NCBI GenBank assembly: GCA_006384855.1
Contig: VCJN01001842.1
Span: forward strand, 186,001-250,000
From: Tetraselmis striata
Lineage: Eukaryota; Chlorophyta; Chlorodendrophyceae; Chlorodendrales; Chlorodendraceae
Direction of reading: 5' to 3'
Length of the DNA stretch: 64,000 nt
A model generated the notes under the pieces. It was not told the DNA's origin. It searched no databases and saw only the letters and a program-made list of their open reading frames with translations. Below are positions 4,664-55,474 of the stretch, piece after piece (position 1 is the first letter of the stretch; each line of letters opens with the position of its first letter). A program made the position numbers and the translations under genes.

Positions 4664-4994
4664 CCGTAACCGCGCCCCGCGTCTTTTTTTTTCGCGAGAC
4701 CGCATCGTACAGGGCGGCCCCTTATGTCGAGCACAAACTGGGGTTAACCACTCATGGGGCCGCGGCACTTGCCGGGAAAGGGCGCCTGCCTGCGTGCAGG
4801 TATTTACAATATTGCGCCGTTTTTCTGCCGGGCGGAGTCACTTATCCTGCGCGGCCGCATGCCGACCTGAAGGAACCTTTCGATTCTCGCACCGCAGACG
4901 GAGACGTGAGGCGACCCGGATCCGGAAGGCGGGATCAGGCCGGGGGCGGCTGATCGTGGTTAGGTGGCGGTTTGCGGAGGGAGTGCGAGCCGCC

Positions 4995-5621
4995 ATGCCG
5001 TCCAAAGCGGTGACGTTGGATGAGAAGCTGTCGGTGGCGATCAACGACGCGGACGAAGCGGAGGTGGAGGCTCTGCTGGCCAAGGGCGCAGACCCCAACT
5101 ATGAAAATCCACTGGGGTTCACGCAGCTGATGGTCGCGTGTGAGAACTGCGACCCCTCGCTCATACGGGTGCTTCTGAAAGCGGGCGGCGACCTGAGCAA
5201 GGTGTCATTCTATCAGCGAACGCCGCTGAGCTTCGCCATTGTGAACAACAACGTGGACGTTGTCAAGATGCTGCTGGAGATGGACATGAATCTGGAGCAG
5301 CGTATCATGGAGGTGGGTGACCCGCCGTACCCATCCCTGCTATGCCCTGCAGGTAGATGCTGCTTGAAGAGCTGCCAGAATGCCCTGACCCTCCACCCCC
5401 GTCCCCTGCAGGAGAACTACACCTACCTCATCTACGCCGCAAAATGGGGCTTCAAGGAGATCTGCGAGCGGTTAGTAGGGAAGGGCTTAGACGTGGACCT
5501 CACTGACAGGGATGGCCTGACCGCGATCGACCACGCCCGGAGAGGGCGATACAATATCACCGCCGCCTTCCTAGAAGAGGCGGCCAGGAAAAAGCGGAAC
5601 AGGAGTGTGTCTGCTGCCTGA
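4995..5621 (+). CDS. Small ankyrin-repeat protein
   Basis: The gene has two exons, 4995-5312 and 5412-5621, giving 175 residues. Ankyrin repeats are clear: VEALLAKGADPNYENPLGFT, LIRVLLKAGGDL, TPLSFAIVNNNVDVVKMLLE, YLIYAAKWGFKEICERLVGK and DLTDRDGLTAIDHARRGRY. There are four to five repeats and no other domain, so it is probably a protein-binding scaffold; the partner is unknown. The start at 4995 has a good context (GCCGCCATGCCG) and is followed directly by the first repeat. A longer upstream reading exists only because the poly-G run encodes glycine. The 99-nt intron (GTGGGT...CTGCAG) is a multiple of three with no stop, so unspliced mRNA would add 33 residues. The C-terminus is basic (ARKKRNR). 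Confidence 0.85.
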   Translation: MPSKAVTLDEKLSVAINDADEAEVEALLAKGADPNYENPLGFTQLMVACENCDPSLIRVLLKAGGDLSKVSFYQRTPLSFAIVNNNVDVVKMLLEMDMNLEQRIMEVGDPPYPSLLCPAGRCCLKSCQNALTLHPRPLQENYTYLIYAAKWGFKEICERLVGKGLDVDLTDRDGLTAIDHARRGRYNITAAFLEEAARKKRNRSVSAA

Positions 5622-13599: not shown

Positions 13600-13935
13600 A
13601 TACATATGCGGAGTGTAATTTCTACGGAGCTCGGGTAGTCTATACAATGGTCAAATATATTTTTGTCTAATATTATTCTAATATCAGAATAGATTAAATA
13701 AAAATTACAATAAAAGTAAAATAATGCAACTATATCATATTTGATCCTTAGATTATTTGAATTACAACAATTCGATAACTACTAGGCTATGTTTGATTAT
13801 AATATGTTAGATTAGTAGAATCGTAACTAGATGTTATAGTAGAATGTGATACTCAAATGTTATCTATTGTATTATTTGATCATATTCTAATATTCAGCAT
13901 ATATATCCAATATATTACAGAGCAGGGAGAGAGGA
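13600..13935. other. AT-rich non-coding stretch
   Basis: A block of very high AT content (AATAAAAATTACAATAAAAG and similar) between GC-rich neighbours, about 200 nt beyond the end of the armadillo/IQ gene. No open frame or shared repeat is seen. Confidence 0.6.
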
Positions 13936-14094: not shown

Positions 14095-14099
14095 TTACA
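14095..14099 (-). terminator. TGTAA polyadenylation signal of the armadillo/IQ gene
   Basis: TTACA on the plus strand is TGTAA on the minus strand. It lies 154 nt beyond the stop codon at 14253-14255. Confidence 0.55.
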
Positions 14100-14252: not shown

Positions 14253-17200
14253 TTACTCGCCCTCGCCGCCTGCATGACCACCCCGCTTGACGGACTCGTC
14301 TCTTTTCAACTGCTTGCGCGCTGCACGCCCTCTCTGCATCGCTTGAATCTTCACCGCCGCCTCCTGGGACAGATGTTCGCACACACTACGTCAGCACCAT
14401 GTTGGACCATTTGTATACACAAGGGTGGCAGGTATATAGCGGCACTTGCCGCACTGGATCCACGTAGTTGTGGGCAGGTTCACACTTTGCAGTGACTTGC
14501 CGTGACTACGGCCAAGTTACTCAGTTCACTTTCACATATCGTAGCTACGTGTAACGCCCTCGGTGCGAAAACATCCACCAGCAAGAAACTAGTTGGCTGC
14601 ATTGGATCGGTTTTGAGTGTTTTAATCACGGATGTATGGCAAAATCAGTTGTCACAAATTACCCGTAACAACAAAGCCTCTTGCGTTCAAACTCGTCGCA
14701 GTGGCTACGCGGATGGTTTAGGAGCAGCGGCTATACTTCTCCTGCTCTGCAATCACGACGACTCTGCGTACGGCATATCTGTGCCCCTTTGATGGGTTCA
14801 GGAGTTAACACAAACACCGAATTGTTATTCAACGCCAAGTCGGGATATTTGTGCAGCAAGTGTTCTTTATTTACGTACTATGATACATTTCAAATACATA
14901 GAGTTGTTATCCTGTCTCTCACGCACGGGCCAACGGGGGCCCGGGGGGGGGTACGCAGTACTGTATAGCGGACCCAAAGCGTGCGTACTGTGAGTGCTAA
15001 CAGCATGGAGTTTGCTGGGCCTCCTTTCATTAGGGAGAAAGGGGTGCAAGGGGCGCACCTCCTGCTCCCTTGTCTCCTTGATCTGCTCCACCTCCTTCCG
15101 CGCCTGCCTGCCCCGCTGCAGCGCTTGGATTTTCAGCGCGGCCTCCGCTTCATCGCCTCCTGCCGCTGCCGACGCCGCTGCAACCGCGACCTGGCTTGGC
15201 GTGATGGTCCCGTGGGTGTCTCGTATCTGCCGCACCTCCCGCCGCGCCTGCCGGCCCCGCTGAATCGCCTGTATCTTCATCGCCGCCGTCTGCTCCTCCT
15301 CGCTGTCGCCGATAGGGACATCAGCTTCCGCGGCTTCGGGTAACGGGGGCAAATGGCCGGCAGGCACTGCATCCATGGCTGGCAAGCCTTTCTTCTTGGT
15401 GGCGGGCGGCAGCCCCAGCAGCTCGGCGTTCAGGTCATGAGACGCCTTCTCCCCCTTCATCTCCTCGACGTACTTCCGCGACTTGCGGCCACGGGCCATT
15501 GCCTGCAGCTTCACAGCAGCCTTCTCCATCTCCGGATCCAGGGCAAACTGCAGCGAAAACGGCAACAGAGTCAATGCCAGATCGTAGTGAATACCAGAGC
15601 GGGCAGGCGCCTCCAGCTGCCACAAGGTACCTCAGTCCCACCCGATGGGGCCAGAGCCACATGGGGGTTTAGTGTCTGCGCAGAGGATACGCCAGTGACA
15701 AAGCTGATCACGAAGGGGTGACTTACCTCATCGGGGTTTTCCTCCTTGTAGCTGATCCAGTCATCGATGAAGGTGTCCTGGATCTCGGCTACCGCCACAG
15801 AGTGCTCCACATCCAGGGCCAGGGACTGGACGCTGTTGAAGACGCCCAGCGCATCCATCAGCTTGCTGTACGGGTTGTACCCGATCTCATCCGCGTCGGT
15901 CTCGCCCGCAAGGATTATGGAGCGAATGGCCTCTAGCCCAATCGCCTGCATCTTCTTGTCCATCTCCAGCATGTCCTTCACAGCGCGAAGCACGTCATTG
16001 GCCACCAACAGCGCAATCTGCTCGTCCTCGCCATGCGTCGCGTTGCAGAGCGCATAAGCGCACTCCTTCTTGGTCGCCACCGCGTGCTCAGCGCTGCGCA
16101 GGATGGCCACCAGCTGCCTGATGAGCCCCGGTTTCTCCAGCATCGCCTGCAGCTGCTGCTCCGTGCCAGCCGCAATGTTGGACAGCGCCCACGCTGCCTC
16201 CTTCGCCAGGCTGTCGTCCCCACCGCCGCGCAGGATGGCCAGCAGCGTGTCGAGCACGCCCGCTGCCATCACTGTGTCAGCGTCGCCATCACAGCCACTC
16301 AACCCGTTCCCGATCACCTTCAAGCTGGGGATAGCCACATCCACATTGGGATTCCTGCGCACGCGGGGGTCCCTCTTAGCGCCCTAGCTAGCTGGCCAAA
16401 TGCATAAGTAAGCAGTGCACACTTCCCACAATGCAACAGGTGGTCAGCAGACATGAGTGCGCTTGCCACCGGAGTCTGGCTCTGCAGCCAACGGGCCCTC
16501 CGTACCTTGCTGCATCCAGCACGACCGGCAGGATGTCCGAGGAGATGACCATGGATACTGTGTCGGGGTCCGAGTCGTCGCTGAGGTCTGTGATTGTTGC
16601 GAGTGCCCAGCAGGCTCCAGAGCTGGCATCCGGGTCCCTGATGGCCAGTATCTCGCGCAGGATGCGCACCAGCTGCGACATCTGCTCCGGCATGGACAGC
16701 AAAATACACAACCACACGCAGGTCAGCGCCTGAATGTGATCTTCCAGCAGCAACAGCGCCATGCAAACACGGGATATGGACGCAAGTGTCTTTGCAAGGG
16801 TGCCGGCCATGCGCATGCACGGAGAAGAGCGCTTTGGGGGGGGGGGGGGGGGGGGGTGGCGACCGTCTCCAGCCTTGGCAGCGGCTTGATCTTGACAAGG
16901 TTGCTGATGAACCACACACCATTTTGGGCGGTGGACATGGTGCGTCCTGACAGGGACAGGGAGCTTGTCAGCACTGGGGAGGGGTCTAGCCGAAGTCGTG
17001 TGTCGTGGCGGGGGTGACAGTTGCGAAGGCCGTACCTGGCATGATCTCCACCAGCGTGTCGATGGTACCGCTGTCGAGCACCTTGTCCCGCAGAGCAGTG
17101 GAGTCGCCCACAATATTGCTCAGCGCCAGCAGTGCCTGCCACACGTTAAAACACACATTAATCGCAGGGTCATAAACTTCTCCAGAGAAGCTAGCGCAGA

Positions 17201-18157
17201 CAGTCGGCAATACTGCATTGCCCGGTCCATTAATCAGTTTGTTGTCAAGTGGGGTACCACCGTGTGGCTAGAGGCATACAGGGAGAGCATGCAAGGCATG
17301 TGGCATTGTAGAGTACCTGATCAACGACCTCATCAGAGTCGGACTTCATCAGTCCAACCAAGGGCTCTATGACCCCGTGTTCGACTGTCGCGTCAATAAA
17401 GTCCGAGATTGGCATGGTGAGGGCTGTGGCAATGTAGGCAGCGTCCAGTTGCTCGTACTCATCGCCCCCTAGACATTCCACAACTTTGGCAAGCATGCCG
17501 GCCTCCACCAGCTTCCGGATTTCCTCCGGGTCCTCATTCTCCACCACTTCGCGGCATTCAGCCATCGACTTTTTCAAATGCAACGTCATTTTGTGGATGT
17601 CTCTTGGAAACGGTACCGATCGATTTCGTTGGATGGTACGTGATTGATTGTGTCTGACCACGGGCGCTCATGGTAGTAGACAACTGCTTCGTGAGCGAAG
17701 CGTTCCGAGTGGAGAGAGAGGCTGACAAGCTTGTTGCCGGCAGCTCGTGAGAAGCTGCTGCCGCTTCCCTCTCCGCCAGTGCCCGCTCTTTGTCCTGCAG
17801 CTCCTGCTCCCATCGCGCTAGCTTGGCTGCCTTCTCCTCTAGCTCCTTCTCAATGGCTGTGCCAGAGGTGGGTTTAGGGGACCCGTTGCGCGATCCAACC
17901 CGGACTCCGCTTGAGATCTAATGCATAGCAAGGCGGCTTCAGACTTGTTATGCTGCGTGCTCCAGATTTGCGATGTTCCTGAGCACGCAAGGTGACGTAG
18001 AAACAGGGGACCCCCCGTTCCAAAAAAGAAGCACACCCCCGTCCTCGCTTGCTCAGGCTCGTACCACGTGCTTGGCGCTTATACCAGCTAGAAGTCCTGG
18101 AGCCGTCTGAGCTGTCGGTGGCGCCGCACCGACCTGTGAGCTGCTGCCGCACCCCAT
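14253..18157 (-). CDS. Importin-alpha-like armadillo protein with N-myristoylation start and four IQ motifs
   Basis: Minus-strand exons: 18157-18085, 17856-17727, 17602-17317, 17135-17036, 16946-16864, 16681-16506, 16354-15727, 15547-15059 and 14363-14253. All junctions keep phase; the product is 691 residues. It starts MGCGSSSQ: Gly2 and Ser6 fit N-myristoylation and Cys3 palmitoylation. Residues 27-59 are a predicted coiled coil (IEKELEEKAAKLARWEQEL). Residues 85-490 are armadillo repeats of importin-alpha type. NLS-groove Trp/Asn pairs survive at GVWFISN (208/212) and AAWALSN (338/342), but others are changed (CWALAT, CAYALCN). No Arg-rich importin-beta-binding region is visible. IQ motifs lie near 505, 583, 631 and 660 (KIQAIQRGRQARR type), probably binding calmodulin or a similar light chain. 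Intron 5 holds a 21-nt poly-C run (sense). The exon 2 donor (GTCAGC) is weak. Confidence 0.82.
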
Positions 18158-21100
18158 GGCTCCAAGGCGCTGTGCACAGACGGCGGGGGTTCGATGCGTC
18201 ACTTCTTCCGCTGCCGCAGGTGGTTCCCCAGTCGACATAAAGATGGGCCCTGACCAAGCCCGCAGAAGCCCCGCTCGCTGCGCTCTACGTGTCAGACTTG
18301 CTCGCGTATGCCTATAATGCGCTATATGTCGTGTGCGCTATACTGCCCTGAGCGCCTGGGCCCGCACCGAGGCGCACCGCGACAGATGGTGTCGGCATGC
18401 CGCATGCGCACTACTCACTATCCAGTACTGTGGTAACTACTGTGCCCGGATGGGGAGCTATATACGCTGTGAAGCCCTTACAAGGTGCGGGAGGTCGTGC
18501 AGGAAGGGGGTGCGCCGGAAACCCGGGGAGTTCGCGCCCGTTTTCGGAAAGAAAAACTTGAAAACTTACCCCCAGGAGCCCCAGGTAGCCGGCCGTCTGT
18601 GCCGGCGCTAGTTGCGAGCTTCGTTCGCAGGTGAGTGTCGGGAGTAGCGCGATCCTGCTCCCCGCGACCCCGCGCGTCGGTTATAAGACTCCGAGGCGCG
18701 CCGGTCTAACACATACAGTCTTGAACCCGATCCTCGTCGGCGCAAATAAAGCGAACGAGTATGGGATATAGGTCTCCCTGATGTAACCAAAAAGACTAGT
18801 ATGGGATATAGTGCCCTAGCGATATCTACTCGTCATGATTGCTGCCGCTCAGCTGCTGAGAATACTGTATGAGGCTTGAATGCACCTCATCTGCTGCATT
18901 CATCTGCACGGGTTATTGACTGCACCTCAAGTAGGACAGTAGTAGTATGTTTCAGTACCTGTACATCCCTCCTCGAGATGCGGGATGCGGGCCGCGTTGA
19001 TTGCGGGATTGCGGATTGTGCTGATCTTTTAGAACTGATTTCGCGGAAGTTTTTAATACTGACCTTTTGCTGTAGTGGACGTTTCCTATTTCCTTTTCGG
19101 GTGGTGTCCTGATCGCCTTTTGCAGCTAGGTCATGTAACTATATTTTTTTACTGGCGATTCTCGAATTCACACAAGTGCTTGTATATGGTGCTCGCTGAG
19201 AGGCTGTCGTGTTTGCTACTCGGCTTCGGAATGAGAGTTCCCTCCCAACGTTCAACGTCGTGAACGGGAGCTATGATCCCCAGAGCTTGAAGCCCACAAT
19301 GCTCGAGTTCAAGACAACTGCGAGGGCAAGGAGGGCTGGACGCCCGCCAAGGGATTCAGGAAGAGGTGATCAAGAGAATGTGCAGCCGCGCGCGTGTGGC
19401 GCCTCTGTCTCGAAGACTCACTTCTACGACAAGCACAGATTGACGAAAGCGTGCGTCAAGCCGCCTCCGGACACCGCCGCGCTTGTCGCAGCCGGTGGTG
19501 ATGGCACCACTGCGGTAGCTGTTGCATAGTGCGTCCTCTGCTCCGTCCGGACCCGGTCATACCGAAACGCGGGGCGAGCCAAATGATGCATCGATACCGT
19601 CGCCGCCGCCATCTCCCCCGCCGCCCTCTCCGCCGCTCTCGTCTCCCCGAAACGAATCAGCGAGCCCCGCACTATCCAGCGGCGGGAAGGGGCGTTCGGT
19701 GTTGTCTGATGGTGACAGCGCAAGGGAAGAATGCCGAGCTTCACGTGGGCGTTATCATACGCAAGACGTTCGGGACGCGGGGAGCTTTCTCGGCATGGTA
19801 GTCCCCCCCTATGTTGCCCTCCCTAACGTCCCGTTACATCGGTCATAGGCCCACCGCCACCATGTGATGGCTATACCCGTGTGTATCACCCAATATCCAG
19901 GTCGTCAATAGGAGATGGGATAACGAGGACGCAGACCCGGCGGATAGGGAGCTGGTGATGAAGGTGATTTGCGACGACGGCGACAACAGTGGTTCAAAAT
20001 AAATGCTATGTTCGTCAAAAGAAGCATGAATGCGGTGTTAAGCAATGTTGGCCTCAAAACCCTTGTTTTCAGGAGACAAGACACGCGCCACAAAATAAAC
20101 TCGGTGCCGACATCTTGCTCCATGGCTTTTGCGGATGTGTCAACATAATGATCACGGATAGAACTTGGTACTGTATTACCAAGTAACGTATTGGGCGATG
20201 TGATCTATGGCTAACTAAGTATGTAATAGAAATATTCTATCATTCTTTGAAACAATAACATTGCCATTGCTATTTTCATGTATGATCAAAGCTACCATGC
20301 AGCAAAACATGGGTGATAATAAGCAATGCAAGAGTAAAGTCTCTTAGACAAGCTCCGAAACCATCATGTTTTGTCATGCAGCCGAAAACATGAAGTGAGG
20401 ACATGAATAATATGCTGATACTCTGAAACCAATTGTGGTGACACATTGTTACACATTTATTCATGGCCAGCTCTCAATTGGAAGATAGGCGCGGCCGACC
20501 AAGTGTCTACACGCACACACGGTTGAGGCCGCTTAGTCACCCAGCGCAAATCATCATCACCATCACTGGAAGTATCATCACCCTCCTCCAAATCCGCCTC
20601 CTCGGAGGAGGAGTGCCCCCCCTCGTCCTCGTCCTCGTCCTCGTCATCATACTTACCCCCATCTTCATCTTCAACTTCATCCTCTTCGCCACTGGTAGAT
20701 AACGGCATCATGATCATCACCGTGATAGCCACCAGCATTGATGGTATCGGCATCGACACCTAGGTCGTTGGTTGGCGCTGCCTCCCACTCACGACAACCA
20801 TTTTGGCACAGACCGAGGTATCTCCCCCTACCTTGATCCGATCTGGCAACATCGGCTTTGTAACGCTAGCAAGTATGTGCTCCTTGGCGATACGGGAGGC
20901 TACAATAATAAAGCGAAATGATTGCCGAAGTTATTGTTAAGTCGGACTCGGAAGAGCTAGCTGACTCGGCGATACAACTGCTATATACTTGACGACAGAG
21001 CCGCTAAGCGATTTCAATCGCAGGTTGCCTCAAGGCGCCATTGACGACCTACCGGCGGTGTGCCCCTTGCGCACCCACCGACGGTGCCTTTGGGGGGGGG

Positions 21101-36489: not shown

Positions 36490-38967
36490 AAAAACAAAAC
36501 TATGCAAACGCCGGACTGATTGTGGGGGTCAGTTGGCACTATTCACCGCCGCTTCCCCCCGTCTGATGCCGCTGATGGCCCACATCTTGCTCTGATCTTC
36601 ACACCGGGGAGCGCGCCGTGCTTTTGCGATGCTTTGATATGTCTTCCAATGTGTCGCTGATGGGGGTGGCTGTGTTTGTTTGTGCAGGTCCGCGCCAAGG
36701 CACGCGCCGCTCGCGAGAAGGAGGCCAAGGCAGAGAAGGCGCGCCTGAAGGAGGAGAAGGCCCGGGCGCGCGAGGAGGCCAAGGCCGCGCGCGCGCGAGA
36801 GGAGGAAGCGCGCAGCTGGGCGCAGCAGCAGACACTGGCTCAGCAGATCCAGGAGACCCAGCAGACAGCAGACAAGGCGGTCGCCGCAGAGGCTCCGGCA
36901 GCACAGCCCTGCGCCCCGGTGGAGGAGCCGTTGGCCACCGTTGACAAGCCGGAGGCGGAGCAGGCCGCCATCAGCCTGGTGGCCAGCTCCCGGAGCAGCG
37001 CCGACAACGTCAGAGACCACGCCACCTCCACCTCGCGCGCGGCCCCGCGCCTCAGCCGCTCGCCCTCCGCCTCCTCCACCGCCTCCTCCTCCGCCGCCTC
37101 TTCCGCCAGCGGCAAGGCCAGCGAAGCCAGCGCGGACACCTCCTCCGAGCGCCGCCGCGTGCGGCACCTCTCCGACTCCGCCTCGTCCCGCGCCGGTGAT
37201 CTCGCCGCCGACCTGCTGGCCGCCAAAAAGGCGGCATCAGCAGCGACCGAGCCCTCGCGCGCCGCGCCGGCCGCCTCAAAGCCCGTGCCCATCCCAGTGC
37301 ACGACACCCCCGAAACTCCGGAAGCCGCACAGCTGCCCGTCAAGTCGTCCTCATGGAAGGCTGGTAAGGCATCCGCCGCAGCCGCCGACCCGGTGCTCAA
37401 GTCGGCCTCCTCCAAGGCAATGCCCACTGGAAAGCCAGTTGTCGCCGCCGATAAGGCTGACCGCGGGAGCGCTAGGTCTGATACTGCCCACGACAGCCCC
37501 CCCCCCCCCCCCCCTCTCTCTTCAAAATCCCTTCTTCTAGTTGTACTTTCAATGCCTTAAAATTCAATGCCTCCATCACTTCAGCCAGGTTAATGTTTGT
37601 ATAGGGCCATTTACATTCACCTGCCGTCCTTGCCTGACAGCCAATACGAGTAGGCTCAGATGCAGAGGTTCTACACTGCTTCATCCTCCCCGTCCCCTCT
37701 CCTGCGACGGTCCTTTCTCTGCCCGTACGGCGTTTCCTTGTGTGATAATAACCGTGCCTGCATCGACATTGGATCCTCTGCACCCTTACACTTCTAGCAG
37801 TGCCATAGCATGGCCACAGTGCCGCACGGGACTGAACCCGCCCTCCTCCACCCGCTGCCCTGGCCCAGGTCCATGCCGGTGCTCACTCCGTCGGACATTG
37901 CCGCCGCGACTGCCGCTGCCGCCGCAGCAACCAGCCGCCCCGCCGTCATTACCGTGCCACGCCATCAGCCTATGGGCCCGAGCCGCAAGACCGCCCCATC
38001 CGTGGGCTCCGCCACCGCTGCCGCCGTAGCCTCGTCTGAGCCGCCGGCAACCGCGCGCAGCGGTGCCAAGACGGCCATCTGCAATCTGACGCCAAGCCCA
38101 CACCCCGCCGCGCGCATCGTGCAGTCAACTGTGCGGCCGCGGCCCGTCCCGTCGAGCAGTCCACCATCTGAAGCGCTGTTGACCCACACCTCTTCTGCTC
38201 CGGCTGCCGCTCCTGCTCCTGCTGCTCCTGCTAATGTTCCTGCTTCCGCCACCACGGCGCCGGCCACTGTGCCGGCGCCTCCACCTGCCCCGCGACCAAT
38301 GCCGCCGCTGTCTGCCTGGGGACGCCCTGCACTGTCTGTCCAGACCCAGGCTGCCGCTCCTGCGGCCTCCATGGCTCAGCTGTCGGCGGACCTGTCAGCC
38401 GACCAGGGCCCTATGCTGCCGCCGACCGCGTCGTCCGCCGGCTACATGGGCGGGCTGAACCTCCCCGCGGGCGACAGCCTGCTTGACGCGGACCTGCCGA
38501 GCGACTACCTGAGCGAGCTGAGCCAACAGGGCCTGGCCCCGCCGGCCGGGCTGCCCGAGAGCCCCCGTTTGGAGAACAGCAGCGGCAGCGGCAGCCTCTT
38601 TCCCGACCTGGCTGCCATCTGGGGCGACTCGTCCTCCAGCCTCGGCCTCGGCCTCGGCCTCGGCACCGGCGGCATGTTTGGCGCGCCGCCCCCCGCAGCG
38701 CAGCAGCTGGCTCCCACCGGCGGGTTCCCGCCCGTGCCCACCAGCCTACCGATGGACAGCTACCAGCCGTTTGGCTCCTCCTCCATCTGGGGCTCCTCGC
38801 ACCTCGGCTCCTCCGTTGGCGGCGGCAACGGCGGCGGCAACACCCTCGCAGACCTCGCGCACCTGCTGCCAGACAGCCTGGACGGCCTGCTGCTGCCCGA
38901 CGGCCTCCACTGGCAGCCCCTGAGCACCTCGCACACCTCGCTGGGCGACAGCCGCCGCTCCCCATGA
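30866..38967 (+). CDS. Predicted ER type I membrane protein with MANF-type CxxC/SAP-like motif
   Basis: Fourteen phase-consistent exons: 30866-30902, 31041-31123, 31293-31367, 31473-31561, 31765-31887, 32064-32190, 32416-32493, 32836-32947, 33379-33740, 34110-34577, 34997-35218, 35719-36117, 36688-37475 and 37869-38967; 1353 residues. The start MGLCSAEGSKAR runs into a hydrophobic core (VLVFGFLSLLVILAA), a signal peptide. The luminal part has TPR-like helices (FHLASSYLESGDFQDAVVWL), then LRVKELQRQL and LSCSDCIEKGDLLREL (about 232-261), like the MANF/ARMET C-terminal SAP fold with its CxxC (248-251). Three N-glycosylation sequons (NTS, NET, NAS) agree with a luminal position. A membrane helix follows near 607-626 (PLTLGACILASFAIYLG), then basic residues, a charged coiled coil (726-785) and a long Ser/Ala/Pro-rich tail. 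Five introns carry sense poly-C, one poly-G. Role in ER protein quality control is inference; the exact start is uncertain. Confidence 0.75.
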
Positions 38968-45151: not shown

Positions 45152-46721
45152 ATGCCGGCAGCAGCTTCGGAGGGCGGAGTGCTCGCGGGCTCCGCCTGCA
45201 GCGGCGAGCTCCACAACTGCGCTCGGTGCCATAGGTGAGCGCTACGAGAAATCGACTTCTGGGTCGTGATGGGGAGGCAGGCTCACAGGCAGGCCAAGCC
45301 TGACGCGTCTTGGTTTCCCGATCGCACTGCCGACACCGTATGCGTCTTTTTAAAATATGTACGTCGACCTGCTCCGCAATGGTAGACTGGCTGTTGACGG
45401 GGAAGGTCCCGAGTCACGTGGCTGCACGCAACTCCCGCAGGTACTACTCATTTTCGGAAGCCCAGGAGGCGGCCCATGCTCCATGTCGCTACCATCCGGG
45501 AGCATACGGAACGGGCGCGTCCGGTGGAGACGGGGCTGGGTGAGTTCTCGGCAATTAACAAAAGCTGTAGGGCGCTGAGCTCGGAGGCGGTGCGTGCTGC
45601 GCCATCCACTTCTTCCTACTGAACCTCCTCCCCCCCCCCCCCCCCCCGAAACACCGCCTTATAGTCTGCTAGCTTTTGCCAGCAGCCTGTCACCATATTG
45701 GAAATGTTGTGGCGCATCGGAGCAGGACGCCGCTGGCTGCCAGTAACCCCCCCCCCCCCCCCCCCCCCAACCCCAACCCCAACCCCGCGACACCCACTTT
45801 TCATCATACTTTTTGTGTCTGTCATTGCGCAGTCTCCGCATGCCCTCCCCCCATGTTAATTAAAGCAGGCGCGATCGGGCCCCATTTTTTAATTTCACTA
45901 CCACCGCCATCGCAGAGTCTCCAACGAGCACGTACAAGACGGCAGTTTTGAGAAGGCAGCGGCCCTGCTTGGTCAGTACAACAGGGCGGAGGCCGCAAAA
46001 CAGTGGCCGCCGCCGCCGTGCGTGCCCCCTGAGGCTGCCACCGCTGCTCCTGCTGGCTCCGCTGCCCCTATGCCTTCGAAGGACAAGCAGACTCTGCTGG
46101 AAAATGGATGGAAGGAAGTCACTGTCGGCAGGTGAGAATATTATCGACTGAGTAAGGTCGGAGTATTGCTGTCTGTCATTGCTGAGTTCCTAGAGATGCG
46201 GATGGGGGCGTATTTCAAGTTCCCTGCAGTTCCACCTGAAGTCCCACATTCGCTATCTCCTGGCTGTGTATCGTTGGCTGACTGCTAAGCGCACGCACTT
46301 ACGATTATCTGGCATCCTTCTTGCTGAGTTGAGATGTCTACTCATCCCTCTCGCTCGCCTGCACAGGAACGACACCCTGATGGGCCTGGCCCTCAAGCAT
46401 GGCGTGCAGCCCGCCCTCCTGCGCCTCGCCAACCGACTCAGCGACGACAGCCTGCTGATGTCCCACACCTCCCTCCTGGTACCCCCGCGTGGGTGGGACC
46501 CCGCCGCCGGTGGCGGTGGCCTGGCGCCCCAATCAGAGGAGCAGTCCCGAGCCGCAGCGGTGCACTACGTGCAGAAGGCCGCCGGGCTGGCGAGCCCAGA
46601 GGAGGCGCGCTTCTACCTGGACATGGCCGGCGGCGATGTGCACTCGGCGGTGGAAGATTGCCGCGCTGACAAGGAGTGGGAGAACCACTCCTCGGCGGCA
46701 GTTGTTGGCGGCGCTTCCTGA
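45152..46721 (+). CDS. LysM-domain protein with N-terminal CxxC/CxxH zinc motif
   Basis: Exons are 45152-45234, 45441-45539, 45916-46131 and 46367-46721; all phases agree, giving 250 residues. The N-terminus has CARC (23-26) and CRYHPG (43-48) flanking YYSFSEAQEAAHAP, a small CHORD-like zinc-binding motif. The LysM domain is at about 129-172: WKEVTVGRNDTLMGLALKHG, then LLRLANRLSDDSLLMSHTSL. The C-terminus (about 196-238: EEARFYLDMAGGDVHSAVED) resembles the helical UBA-like end of plant intracellular LysM proteins. There is no signal peptide, so it is probably cytosolic; its ligand is unknown. Intron 2 has two sense poly-C runs (45630-45647 and 45747-45768), and a third lies just 3' of the gene (46782-46798). 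Confidence 0.85.
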
Positions 46722-50589: not shown

Positions 50590-52060
50590 GCGCTTCCACC
50601 TGCGGGAGCTCCACAACGTTGTGGGCACGCACTTGATCGGCGTCACCATGCCGCCAATGAAGCATGTGCCCTGGTCGCTTTCGCGACCCGGGCCCGCAGC
50701 CGGTCGGCGCCAACTACTCGCCGCCTCTGCACCATGCGCCATGGTCGCCTCCGCGGCCCATGCACGCAGCTCCTCGGCGCCGTAAGGCCGCCCCTGCGCC
50801 ATCTGCCACTGGTCGCCTCCGCGACCTGCGCATTCATCTGATCGGCGCAAACGGGCCGTCACTGCACCCTTAGCCATGATCGCCTCCGCGACTCAGGCAC
50901 CCTGACACAGCATGTCAGCACAGTCTGGCCGTCCCTACACCATGTGCCCCGGTCGTTTCCGCGACATGCGTAAGCAGCCGGTCGGCATCAACGGGCCGCC
51001 ATTTCACCCAGCGCCTCGATCACTTTACAACCCGCGCACGTATCTGGTCGGCGCAAACGGACCGTCAATGCACCATGTACCATGCATGTTCGCCTCCGCG
51101 GCCCATACACGCAGCTAGTCGGCGCCGGCAGGCGGTCCCAGCGCCACATGCCCCGTTCGCCTCCGCAACGGCATGCGCACGCAGCTGGTCGGCGCCAATG
51201 GGCCGCCATTGCACCCTGCCCCTCGGTCGCTTTCGCGGCCCGCGCACGCAGCTGTTCGGCGCCAACTCGCCGCCTCCGCACCATGTGCCTTGGTTGCTTT
51301 CGCAGCCCCATACACGCAGCTGGGCGGCGTAAACGGACCGCCACAGCATCATGCGTCCCGGTCGCCTCCGCGGCCCGGGAACGCAACTGTTCGGCGCCAA
51401 CGGGCTCACTGCCGCTACACGCTGGGCCTAAGTACTCGGCACGAAGCTGTTCGGCGCCCCCATGCCGCCACTACACCCTGTGCTTTCGCTGCCCGGGCAT
51501 GCAGCGGGTCGACACCATGAGGCTGCCCCCTGCGCCCTGTACCTGCCAGCGGCCTCCGCGGCCTACGCACGCAGCGGGTCGACGCCAACGGGCCATCATT
51601 GCACCCTGCGCCTCGGTCGCTTCCGCGGCATGCGCACGCAGTTGGAGCCGGCGCCAACGGGCTGTCACTGCACACTGTGCCATGGTCGCTTCCGCGACCC
51701 GATAAGCACGCACCAAATTGGCGCCGTTAAGGCCGTCCTGCACCATGTGCCCCTGTCGCTTCCGTGGCCCGGGCACCCAGCTGATCGGCGCCGTCCGCCG
51801 TCCCTGCGCCGTTCGCCTCCGCAGACCGGCGATGCGGGTTGCCGGCCCCACCGTGCCGCCATTGCATCGTCATTGCATGCGCCCGGCGGCTTTCACATCA
51901 TGGGTACGCAATAGGCCGGCGCCAATGGCCGCCCCTACACCGTGTTCCCCGGTCGCTTTCGCAGCCCGGACACGCAGCTAATCGGCGCCGCCGAGCCGCC
52001 GCCGCACCTTGTGCCCATGTTGCTTTCCCAGCTCTCGGGCAGCCCGCTTATCGACGCCAT
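50590..52060. repeat. Degenerate tandem array, unit about 68 bp, about 20 copies
   Basis: The block (C)GCAGCTGGTCGGCGCCAAC, GGGCCGCCATTGCACCATG, then CCCCGGTCGCTTCCGCGGCC recurs without a break. The landmark (C/T)CGCGGC/CCGCGAC occurs at 50681, 50751, 50819, 50886, 50959, 51096, 51162, 51232, 51300 and 51368, so spacing is 66-73 nt (one unit near 51028 has lost it). Units differ at many positions. Because 68 is not a multiple of three, all frames stay fairly open and long Pro/Arg/Ala-rich frames appear on both strands; these are not genes. Confidence 0.9.
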
Positions 52061-54506: not shown

Positions 54507-55474
54507 ATGGTCCGCTCAGCAGTGGCAATGAGCAGCACCAGCGGCGTCGTGCTGCAGGTGATCTCCTGGCAAACCCAGAAAAGTGCTGCCAGCATTTTCT
54601 TTCTGTTTTTGGAGCCGTTCCACACCCGCCTTGCAGCAGATGCTGACCGTTGCCGCCTGTCCATTTGTCACTGCTGGCGCAGGGTAAGAAAACCGCCTCC
54701 GTCTCCCCGGCGAAAGCCATGAAGACTCGGCAGGTGCCAATCATCCCAGTGTCTCACATCCCCCGGGCCATCCGCCTCGTCGCCACCCCCACCACTGGGC
54801 AGAAGTCCCGTCAGGTGCGCCTCCTGCAGTGCCACCCAATGCCCCCCCCCTCCCCCTTCTGTTCCACTCTCATCAAAAGCAGTGTCCCTGTGTATACCTT
54901 GCAACTGCCTGTGCCCGATCTTCCCGGCCAATCATTCCCTGTGGTCCCCTGTGGTGCGTGGCTATTCTCATAGAAGCCGCCACTGACCCCGCTACCTCCG
55001 CTGGACGGTCCGAGCACGAGCACCGCCATCTCCCCCTTTGTTCCTCACCCACTAGCGCTGTGGGAAGAGCCTGCCCCGGCCACCTTTTACATGGATTTTG
55101 GCGGCCACTGCCACAAGAAGCTGGATGACGGGGGGTTCCTATTCATGGACCAGTTCGGTCACTGCCACACCAAGCTTGACGATGGTGGCTTTCTGTACAT
55201 GGACCGCCAGGGAAGCGGCCACAAGAGCCTTGACGACGGCGAGGTGGGGCAGCACCATCCGCCGCCGCGCCCTGGCCGCACTCTCACGGTCTCCGCCATG
55301 CTGGGGACCCCAGAGACCGCAAAGGCCACCAGGCAAAGCCTGGCGTCCCATGATGGGGAGGTGCGGCAGATGCAGGCCAAGGCCACCATGTTCAAGGGTA
55401 AAGCTCACACCCAGAAACCCAATGCATCCACCCGCAAGCTCCACCACATCGGGCAGCCGCGCAGGCACAACTGA
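54507..55474 (+). CDS. Small protein with three 18-residue GHCHxKLDDGG repeats
   Basis: Exons 54507-54557, 54683-54814 and 54974-55474, all phase 0, give 227 residues. The N-terminal half is basic and Pro/Ser/Thr-rich (GKKTASVSPAKAMKTRQVP). Residues 101-118, 119-136 and 137-151 are three tandem units: MDFGGHCHKKLDDGGFLF, MDQFGHCHTKLDDGGFLY and MDRQGSGHKSLDDGE (the last degenerate). His-Cys-His and the Asp pair suggest metal binding, but this is only inference. The C-terminal 76 residues are polar and basic. No signal peptide or membrane segment. The third exon's acceptor (CTCATAG) was chosen because it keeps phase and leads into ordered sequence. The family is not recognised. Confidence 0.65.

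Follow-up and report, generated by a model that had tools for sequence, protein, structure and literature searches.

Palmitoylated importin-alpha is known to act at membranes. In animals it positions NuMA at the mitotic cortex (PMC12238373) and PKC-epsilon at the plasma membrane (preprint PMC13252003), and in Xenopus the partitioning of importin-alpha to the membrane frees scaling factors (PMC10260010). The four palmitoylation sites of KPNA2 are two serines and two cysteines (PMC13252003). Vac8 and TgARO are acylated scaffolds built of armadillo (ARM) repeats (PMC3567180), and nuclear myosin I/myosin 1c carries a nuclear localisation signal (NLS) in its IQ region, its import being blocked by excess calmodulin (PMC3266300). 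Here we describe a gene on the minus strand of a 64,000-nucleotide (nt) stretch of Tetraselmis striata DNA (contig VCJN01001842.1, positions 186,001 to 250,000; hereafter the window, in which all coordinates are numbered). Its predicted product would join an acylation-type start, a helical segment, an importin-alpha-related ARM solenoid and four IQ motifs in a single chain.

With a probability of roughly 0.4, we read this protein as an importin-alpha-derived, membrane-anchored peptide binder that would be regulated by calmodulin and would not serve as a nuclear import adaptor. It shares with importin-alpha a related ARM solenoid over ~390 residues, in which the minor NLS site is largely retained, but it differs in having no detected importin-beta-binding (IBB) or Arm_3 domain, a degraded major site, an acylation-type start and four IQ motifs. 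Because neither IBB nor Arm_3 was detected, the protein, as predicted, should not be classed as importin-alpha and is instead an importin-alpha-related ARM protein with new attachments. With palmitoylated KPNA2, which engages NLS-bearing proteins at the plasma membrane, it would have in common a membrane-bound protein of importin-alpha type. KPNA2 at the membrane is however a fraction of an ordinary adaptor, whereas the window protein would be a dedicated form with an N-terminal motif and IQ motifs but no IBB. Its solenoid sets it apart from Vac8 and TgARO, as it matches importin-alpha (the best 60 of 115 PDB matches), and so do its IQ motifs, which are unmentioned for Vac8 and TgARO in the excerpt of PMC3567180. 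In myosin 1c/nuclear myosin I the IQ region is itself the cargo, whereas here IQ motifs and solenoid stand in one chain. An earlier note on this DNA was aware of no described family with this order. The combination is indeed undescribed in the titles and opening abstracts of the open-access PMC literature on importin-alpha, ARM and IQ combinations, and in the excerpts of PMC9958989, PMC4415241 and PMC7999657, but acylated ARM scaffolds and palmitoylated importin-alpha are both described. The separate ideas are known, and only their hard-wired combination appears to be new.

The gene model runs on the minus strand from 18157 to 14253, a span of 3905 nt. Its nine exons have matching phases and are separated by introns with GT...AG borders and lengths from 58 to 695 nt; joined, they give an uninterrupted frame of 717 residues that ends with a stop codon. 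Independent exon joining returned the same number of exons, the same coordinates and the same agreement of phase as the earlier note had given, whereas its protein length of 691 residues could not be reproduced. In the direction of the gene, the features are:

18236..18238, minus strand: upstream ATG in frame with MGCGSSSQ (MSTGEPPAAAEE...), in the weak context ctttATGt
18134..18157, minus strand: exon 1, encoding MGCGSSSQ, the acylation-type N-terminus
17659..17917, minus strand: exon 2, a low-complexity linker and a charged helix (EKELEEKAAKLARWEQELQDKERALAERE), probably a coiled coil; no IBB
17601..17658, minus strand: intron 2 (58 nt); no junction of the model is weaker, and alternative in-phase choices are present
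17317..17600, minus strand: exon 3, in which the ARM solenoid begins; canonical W142/N146 region of the major site, both residues altered
17036..17135, minus strand: exon 4, ARM repeat; N188 and D192 retained, W184 changed to L
16864..16946, minus strand: exon 5, ARM repeat; N228, W231 and N235 retained; weak donor (gtcgcc) beside a C-run
16506..16681, minus strand: exon 6, ARM repeat; W273 retained, D270 and Y277 replaced by G and T, respectively
15727..16354, minus strand: exon 7, ARM repeats of the minor NLS site and C-terminal solenoid
15059..15547, minus strand: exon 8, IQ motifs 1-3; the preceding intron has donor gtaagt and acceptor gctgcag
14253..14363, minus strand: exon 9, IQ motif 4, the tail containing KR, and the stop
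14095..14099, minus strand: first TGTAA after the stop, at a distance of 154 nt; candidate polyadenylation signal of the green-algal type

Pfam detects Arm in the 717-residue protein with E=3.6e-24 and in the exon 3 open reading frame (ORF) alone with 6.5e-06. Among PDB sequences, residues 97-488 match importin-alpha best (E=3.5e-52), and the best 60 of 115 matches are all importin/karyopherin alpha, SRP1 or importin fusions, with no Vac8 or ARO among them. Aligned with two importin-alpha references taken from these matches, the ARM region is 31-32% identical, and the solenoid is acidic (isoelectric point, pI, of 4.4 for residues 97-490). The importin-alpha-type armadillo solenoid proposed earlier is thus borne out. 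The same is true of the absence of an importin-beta-binding region: Pfam at E<=10 detected no IBB (PF01749) in residues 1-123, nor in the variant with the longer exon 1; the yeast importin-alpha N-terminus served as positive control and scored 9.5e-30 in the same search. Nor was IBB found in 10 of the 11 minus-strand ORFs of at least 40 amino acids (aa) within 17245-18832, the ORF at 18681-18815 (44 aa) being excluded. This largely argues against a hidden IBB exon in the predicted gene within 17245-18832, the sequence upstream of 18832 lying outside the scan. Arm_3 is typical of importin-alpha C-termini. Searching a 110-residue C-terminal stretch of the solenoid did not detect Arm_3 (PF16186) and returned 0 families, Arm included, while the yeast C-terminus gave 6.1e-23 as a positive control in the same search. 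By eye, an NPY and its neighbouring residues in the C-terminal solenoid resemble Arm_3.

Importin-alpha homology extends through the C-terminal solenoid, as would be expected if the protein still acted in nuclear transport, either as an inhibitor or trap that takes NLS cargo from ordinary importin-alpha, or through the exporter recognising the C-terminal ARM repeats. An effect of this kind has a parallel in Xenopus, where membrane partitioning of importin-alpha alters free cargo (PMC10260010). However, no IBB was detected, and Arm_3 likewise went undetected against the strong score of the yeast C-terminus. We consider a role in nuclear transport quite improbable.

For the NLS-binding groove, we take 14 major-site residues and, on the minor site, N319 to be NLS contacts, and use known motifs to place mouse numbering on the alignment. 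The other 15 positions of the minor-site list are the NLS contact residues of importin-alpha given in PMC3946659. Background was set at 36% identity, measured over the 295 columns where both importin-alpha references agree. At the minor site 12 of 16 residues are identical to the references, with a binomial P=0.0017 that is generous because the Trp/Asn positions of importin-alpha are conserved for structural reasons too. Kept are, in mouse numbering, 311 (Ile), L314, N319, G323, D325, 350 (Ser), E354, W357, S360, N361, E396 and N403. R315, T328, I351 and W399 (to Tyr) are changed, which may reduce the affinity of the site. At the major site 7 of 14 residues are identical (P=0.20), no better than background, and W142, N146, G150, T155, W184, D270 and Y277 are changed. 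Overall identity is similar across the two halves of the solenoid (56/185 vs 63/186), and therefore the contrast between the sites is not a general half-to-half difference. A partly kept Trp/Asn ladder, as the earlier note had described it, agrees with these counts.

A major site at background would also be expected of a structural scaffold. In that case the solenoid would have lost its binding of NLS-like peptides and would form a general platform, for instance one of the cytoskeleton or the axoneme, while the IQ motifs would carry calmodulin or centrin-like light chains. Components of the central apparatus include ARM proteins (PF16/SPAG6 and FAP69, for example) and, as separate proteins, IQ proteins such as SPATA17 (PMC7999657). 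Compared with solved structures, the matches of the IQ tail were weak and non-significant; the best was sperm protein Sp17 (E=0.062), taken as generic IQ likeness, and another was radial spoke protein 23 (E=0.11). Against a scaffold, the minor site is retained above background and the closest solved relatives, judged by the best 60 of 115 matches, are import adaptors. Nothing puts the protein in the axoneme, and we regard the scaffold as unlikely. The cilium tethering put forward earlier finds no support anywhere in the analysis.

Pfam places IQ on four stretches of the C-terminus (E=1.4e-12). Four complete motifs, with cores starting at residues 532, 610, 658 and 687, match the pattern [ILVF]Qxxx[RK]Gxxx[RK], in agreement with the number claimed before. 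That the IQ exons belong to a separate gene was considered and rejected: intron 7, between exons 7 and 8, has a good donor (6 of 7, scored against a simple consensus at 7 positions, maximum 7) and a good acceptor (rank 13 of 306), the exon 9 acceptor ranks 6 of 306, and IQ motif 4 in exon 9 extends the IQ series in phase. The IQ exons and the solenoid are thus placed in one gene, as they had been in the earlier note.

A more elaborate arrangement is a calcium-gated membrane cargo clamp, with the N-terminal IBB replaced by an anchor and the basic arm moved to the C-terminus. The C-terminal IQ/KR tail, with its basic IQ helices, would fold back as a pseudo-NLS onto the acidic solenoid, and calmodulin binding to or release from the IQ array would open or close the minor site, replacing the lost IBB autoinhibition. 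The retained minor site speaks for such a clamp, as does the placement of KR dipeptides, of which the protein has two only, at residues 701 and 707, both in the C-terminal tail. K followed by R is the P1'-P2' pair preferred at the importin-alpha minor site, although KR alone is expected to bind there only modestly (PMC3946659). Also in favour is the IQ region of nuclear myosin I/myosin 1c, whose NLS function is sensitive to calmodulin (PMC3266300). Further against the clamp, the tail is charge-balanced (35 K+R, 35 D+E, pI 7.2) and contains no K[KR]x[KR], and the import receptors of the myosin 1c IQ region are importin 5, 7 and beta1, not importin-alpha (PMC3266300). We judge the clamp to be distinctly unlikely.

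At the other end of the protein, the start at 18157 lies in the context gccATGg, which is strong by the Kozak rule. In MGC-type starts, Cys3 is the site of palmitoylation. Starts of the form MGCxx[SC] occur at 1 of the 2305 ATGs on both strands of the window, and MGC starts at 3. Ser6 of MGCGSSSQ matches the myristoylation consensus GXXXSX (quoted in PMC4415241), and a cysteine follows at position 3. A candidate dual-acylation signal of the Vac8/ARO type is present as a motif and rare in the window, other start codons being possible and the modification itself predicted only; as a sequence motif, the start fits dual acylation in the way that had been proposed. Using an alternative in-phase exon 1 donor at 18064 would insert 23 extra residues after MGCGSSSQ.

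The helix encoded by exon 2 has one heptad register with 64% hydrophobic residues or Ala at the a/d positions. A coiled coil, which the earlier note had listed among the features of the protein, is supported by this register but is probable only. The best match of the N-terminus among solved structures is the designed protein 4D2 (E=0.0011), which was taken as generic helix likeness. In Pfam the N-terminus gave sub-cutoff matches only, to Med9 (0.006), RNase_Y_N (0.0071 and 0.0013) and BST2 (0.55), and RNase_Y_N also matched the yeast importin-alpha control (0.029).

Besides the generous P value and the possibly reduced affinity of the minor site, several points weigh against an acylated, calmodulin-regulated peptide binder. 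The gene model is a prediction from the genomic sequence. On the 7-point donor scale, six of the eight introns reach 6 or 7; the other two, introns 2 and 5, reach 4, a value that is equalled or exceeded by 148 of the 242 GTs in this region. Acceptor ranks, out of 306, are middling for introns 1, 2 and 5 (91, 91 and 121) and lie between 1 and 36 for the remaining five. With two weak donors and three middling acceptors, the predicted linkage of exons 1-2 to the ARM exons is tentative, and intron 2 is the critical junction, since it links the acylated/helical part to the solenoid. The 1600 nt that precede exon 2 contain 12 ATGs, four of which (18903, 18398, 18238 and 18157) have a phase-compatible GT. 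By sequence, any of the first three could supply the first exon, which would abolish N-myristoylation; a start at 18238, if used, would bury MGCGSSSQ. The predicted 5' end of the gene is likewise tentative. IQ motifs may have partners other than calmodulin, and AlphaFold2, run on exon 7 alone as a single sequence, reached a mean pLDDT of 40.4 and left the groove without a usable model. Protein and alignment scans for relatives gave 12 and 86 pattern matches in viral_contigs and 50 and 191 in genome_contigs, of which none was confirmed; the two collections cover viruses and prokaryotes, and such scans are little informative on eukaryotes. Finally, TGTAA is a polyadenylation signal in green algae and is absent from the 3905-nt gene, where ~2.9 would be expected from the 48 copies on the minus strand of the window. 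Its distribution would fit one transcription unit, if weakly, because the gene is GC-rich and the downstream stretch AT-rich. Downstream of the gene, 13650-13920 is AT-rich in an otherwise GC-rich window.

Alternatively, the ARM-IQ gene may be real and the acylated start foreign to it, with translation beginning from one of the other ATGs upstream or from the Met of exon 3 (HKM-TLHLKKS). The product would then be a soluble, IBB-less, importin-alpha-like calmodulin-binding protein. The weak exon 2/3 donor and the short intron (58 nt) fit this alternative, as do the position of the in-frame Met in exon 3 immediately before the first ARM helix and the phase-compatible GTs of the ATGs at 18903, 18398 and 18238, the last in frame with MGCGSSSQ. 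Yet the only MGCxx[SC] among the 2305 ATGs has a strong start context and is in phase, exon 2 is coding-like in composition (codon score 22.4 for 17663-17869, from a table trained on the same gene), and no TGTAA lies between exons 1-2 and exon 3. An acylation-free start seems to us somewhat unlikely.

The same junctions bear on whether the gene is a pseudogene or an assembly artefact uniting unrelated exons. Two donors are weak, that of exon 5 (gtcgcc) adjoins a homopolymer C-run, and no relatives were found in the virus and prokaryote collections. Against this, nine exons join in phase without an internal stop, third-position GC of the gene is 0.763, and the residues of the minor site are selectively retained. 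Among the 38 listed coding-like segments of the window, the exon 7 segment has the top coding score (88.9) and the exon 8 segment the third (66.8), with the unrelated ORF 36682-37461 (75.7) between them; the codon table was trained on the same gene, which biases these scores in its favour. We hold a pseudogene or artefact to be highly improbable.

Returning to the membrane-anchored peptide binder, the predicted sequence makes membrane tethering, calcium regulation and cargo binding plausible. N-myristoylation of Gly2 and palmitoylation of Cys3 would keep the protein on the membrane, where the helical segment would act as a spacer or dimerise it. Without an IBB it would not enter the importin-beta import cycle and would be free of the usual auto-inhibition. 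The retained minor site would hold KR-type peptides from one or few partners, and their binding or release would be made calcium-dependent by calmodulin, or by a related EF-hand protein, bound to the IQ array. The protein would in this way permanently tether partners that carry short basic motifs to the membrane, in the manner of palmitoylated importin-alpha or Vac8. We infer this permanent-tether role for KR-type partners, tuned by calmodulin, by analogy with these systems.

In the remainder of the window, a Pfam scan (E<=0.01) of 10 of the 38 coding-like segments, taken as neighbouring ORFs, gave matches in two. An ORF segment at 4908-5600 (plus strand) carries strong ankyrin repeats (Ank_2, E=9.1e-22), and 46368-46685 (plus strand) shows an odd pairing of a weak UBA-like UBA_4 (5.8e-05) with LysM (0.00044, just below its cutoff). 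The ankyrin and UBA_4/LysM neighbours offer no functional link to the gene. Neither a tRNA nor an Rfam family at gathering score was found in the window. Several tandem-repeat arrays with 67-70-base units, whose copies match by 64-81%, lie at 50663-51696, and a 54-base tandem repeat (18 codons) at 55102-55205 falls within an ORF segment and encodes peptide repeats of KLDDGGF type.

If our preferred reading is correct, a nuclear-import adaptor would have evolved into a dedicated membrane tether, losing its import handle and keeping half of its peptide-binding groove, and the same change would have added an anchor and a calcium-sensor platform. The gene would then show, naturally set apart in a protein of its own, the use that animal cells make of a palmitoylated fraction of importin-alpha, and it would offer a direct test of whether the importin-alpha minor site works alone outside nuclear import.

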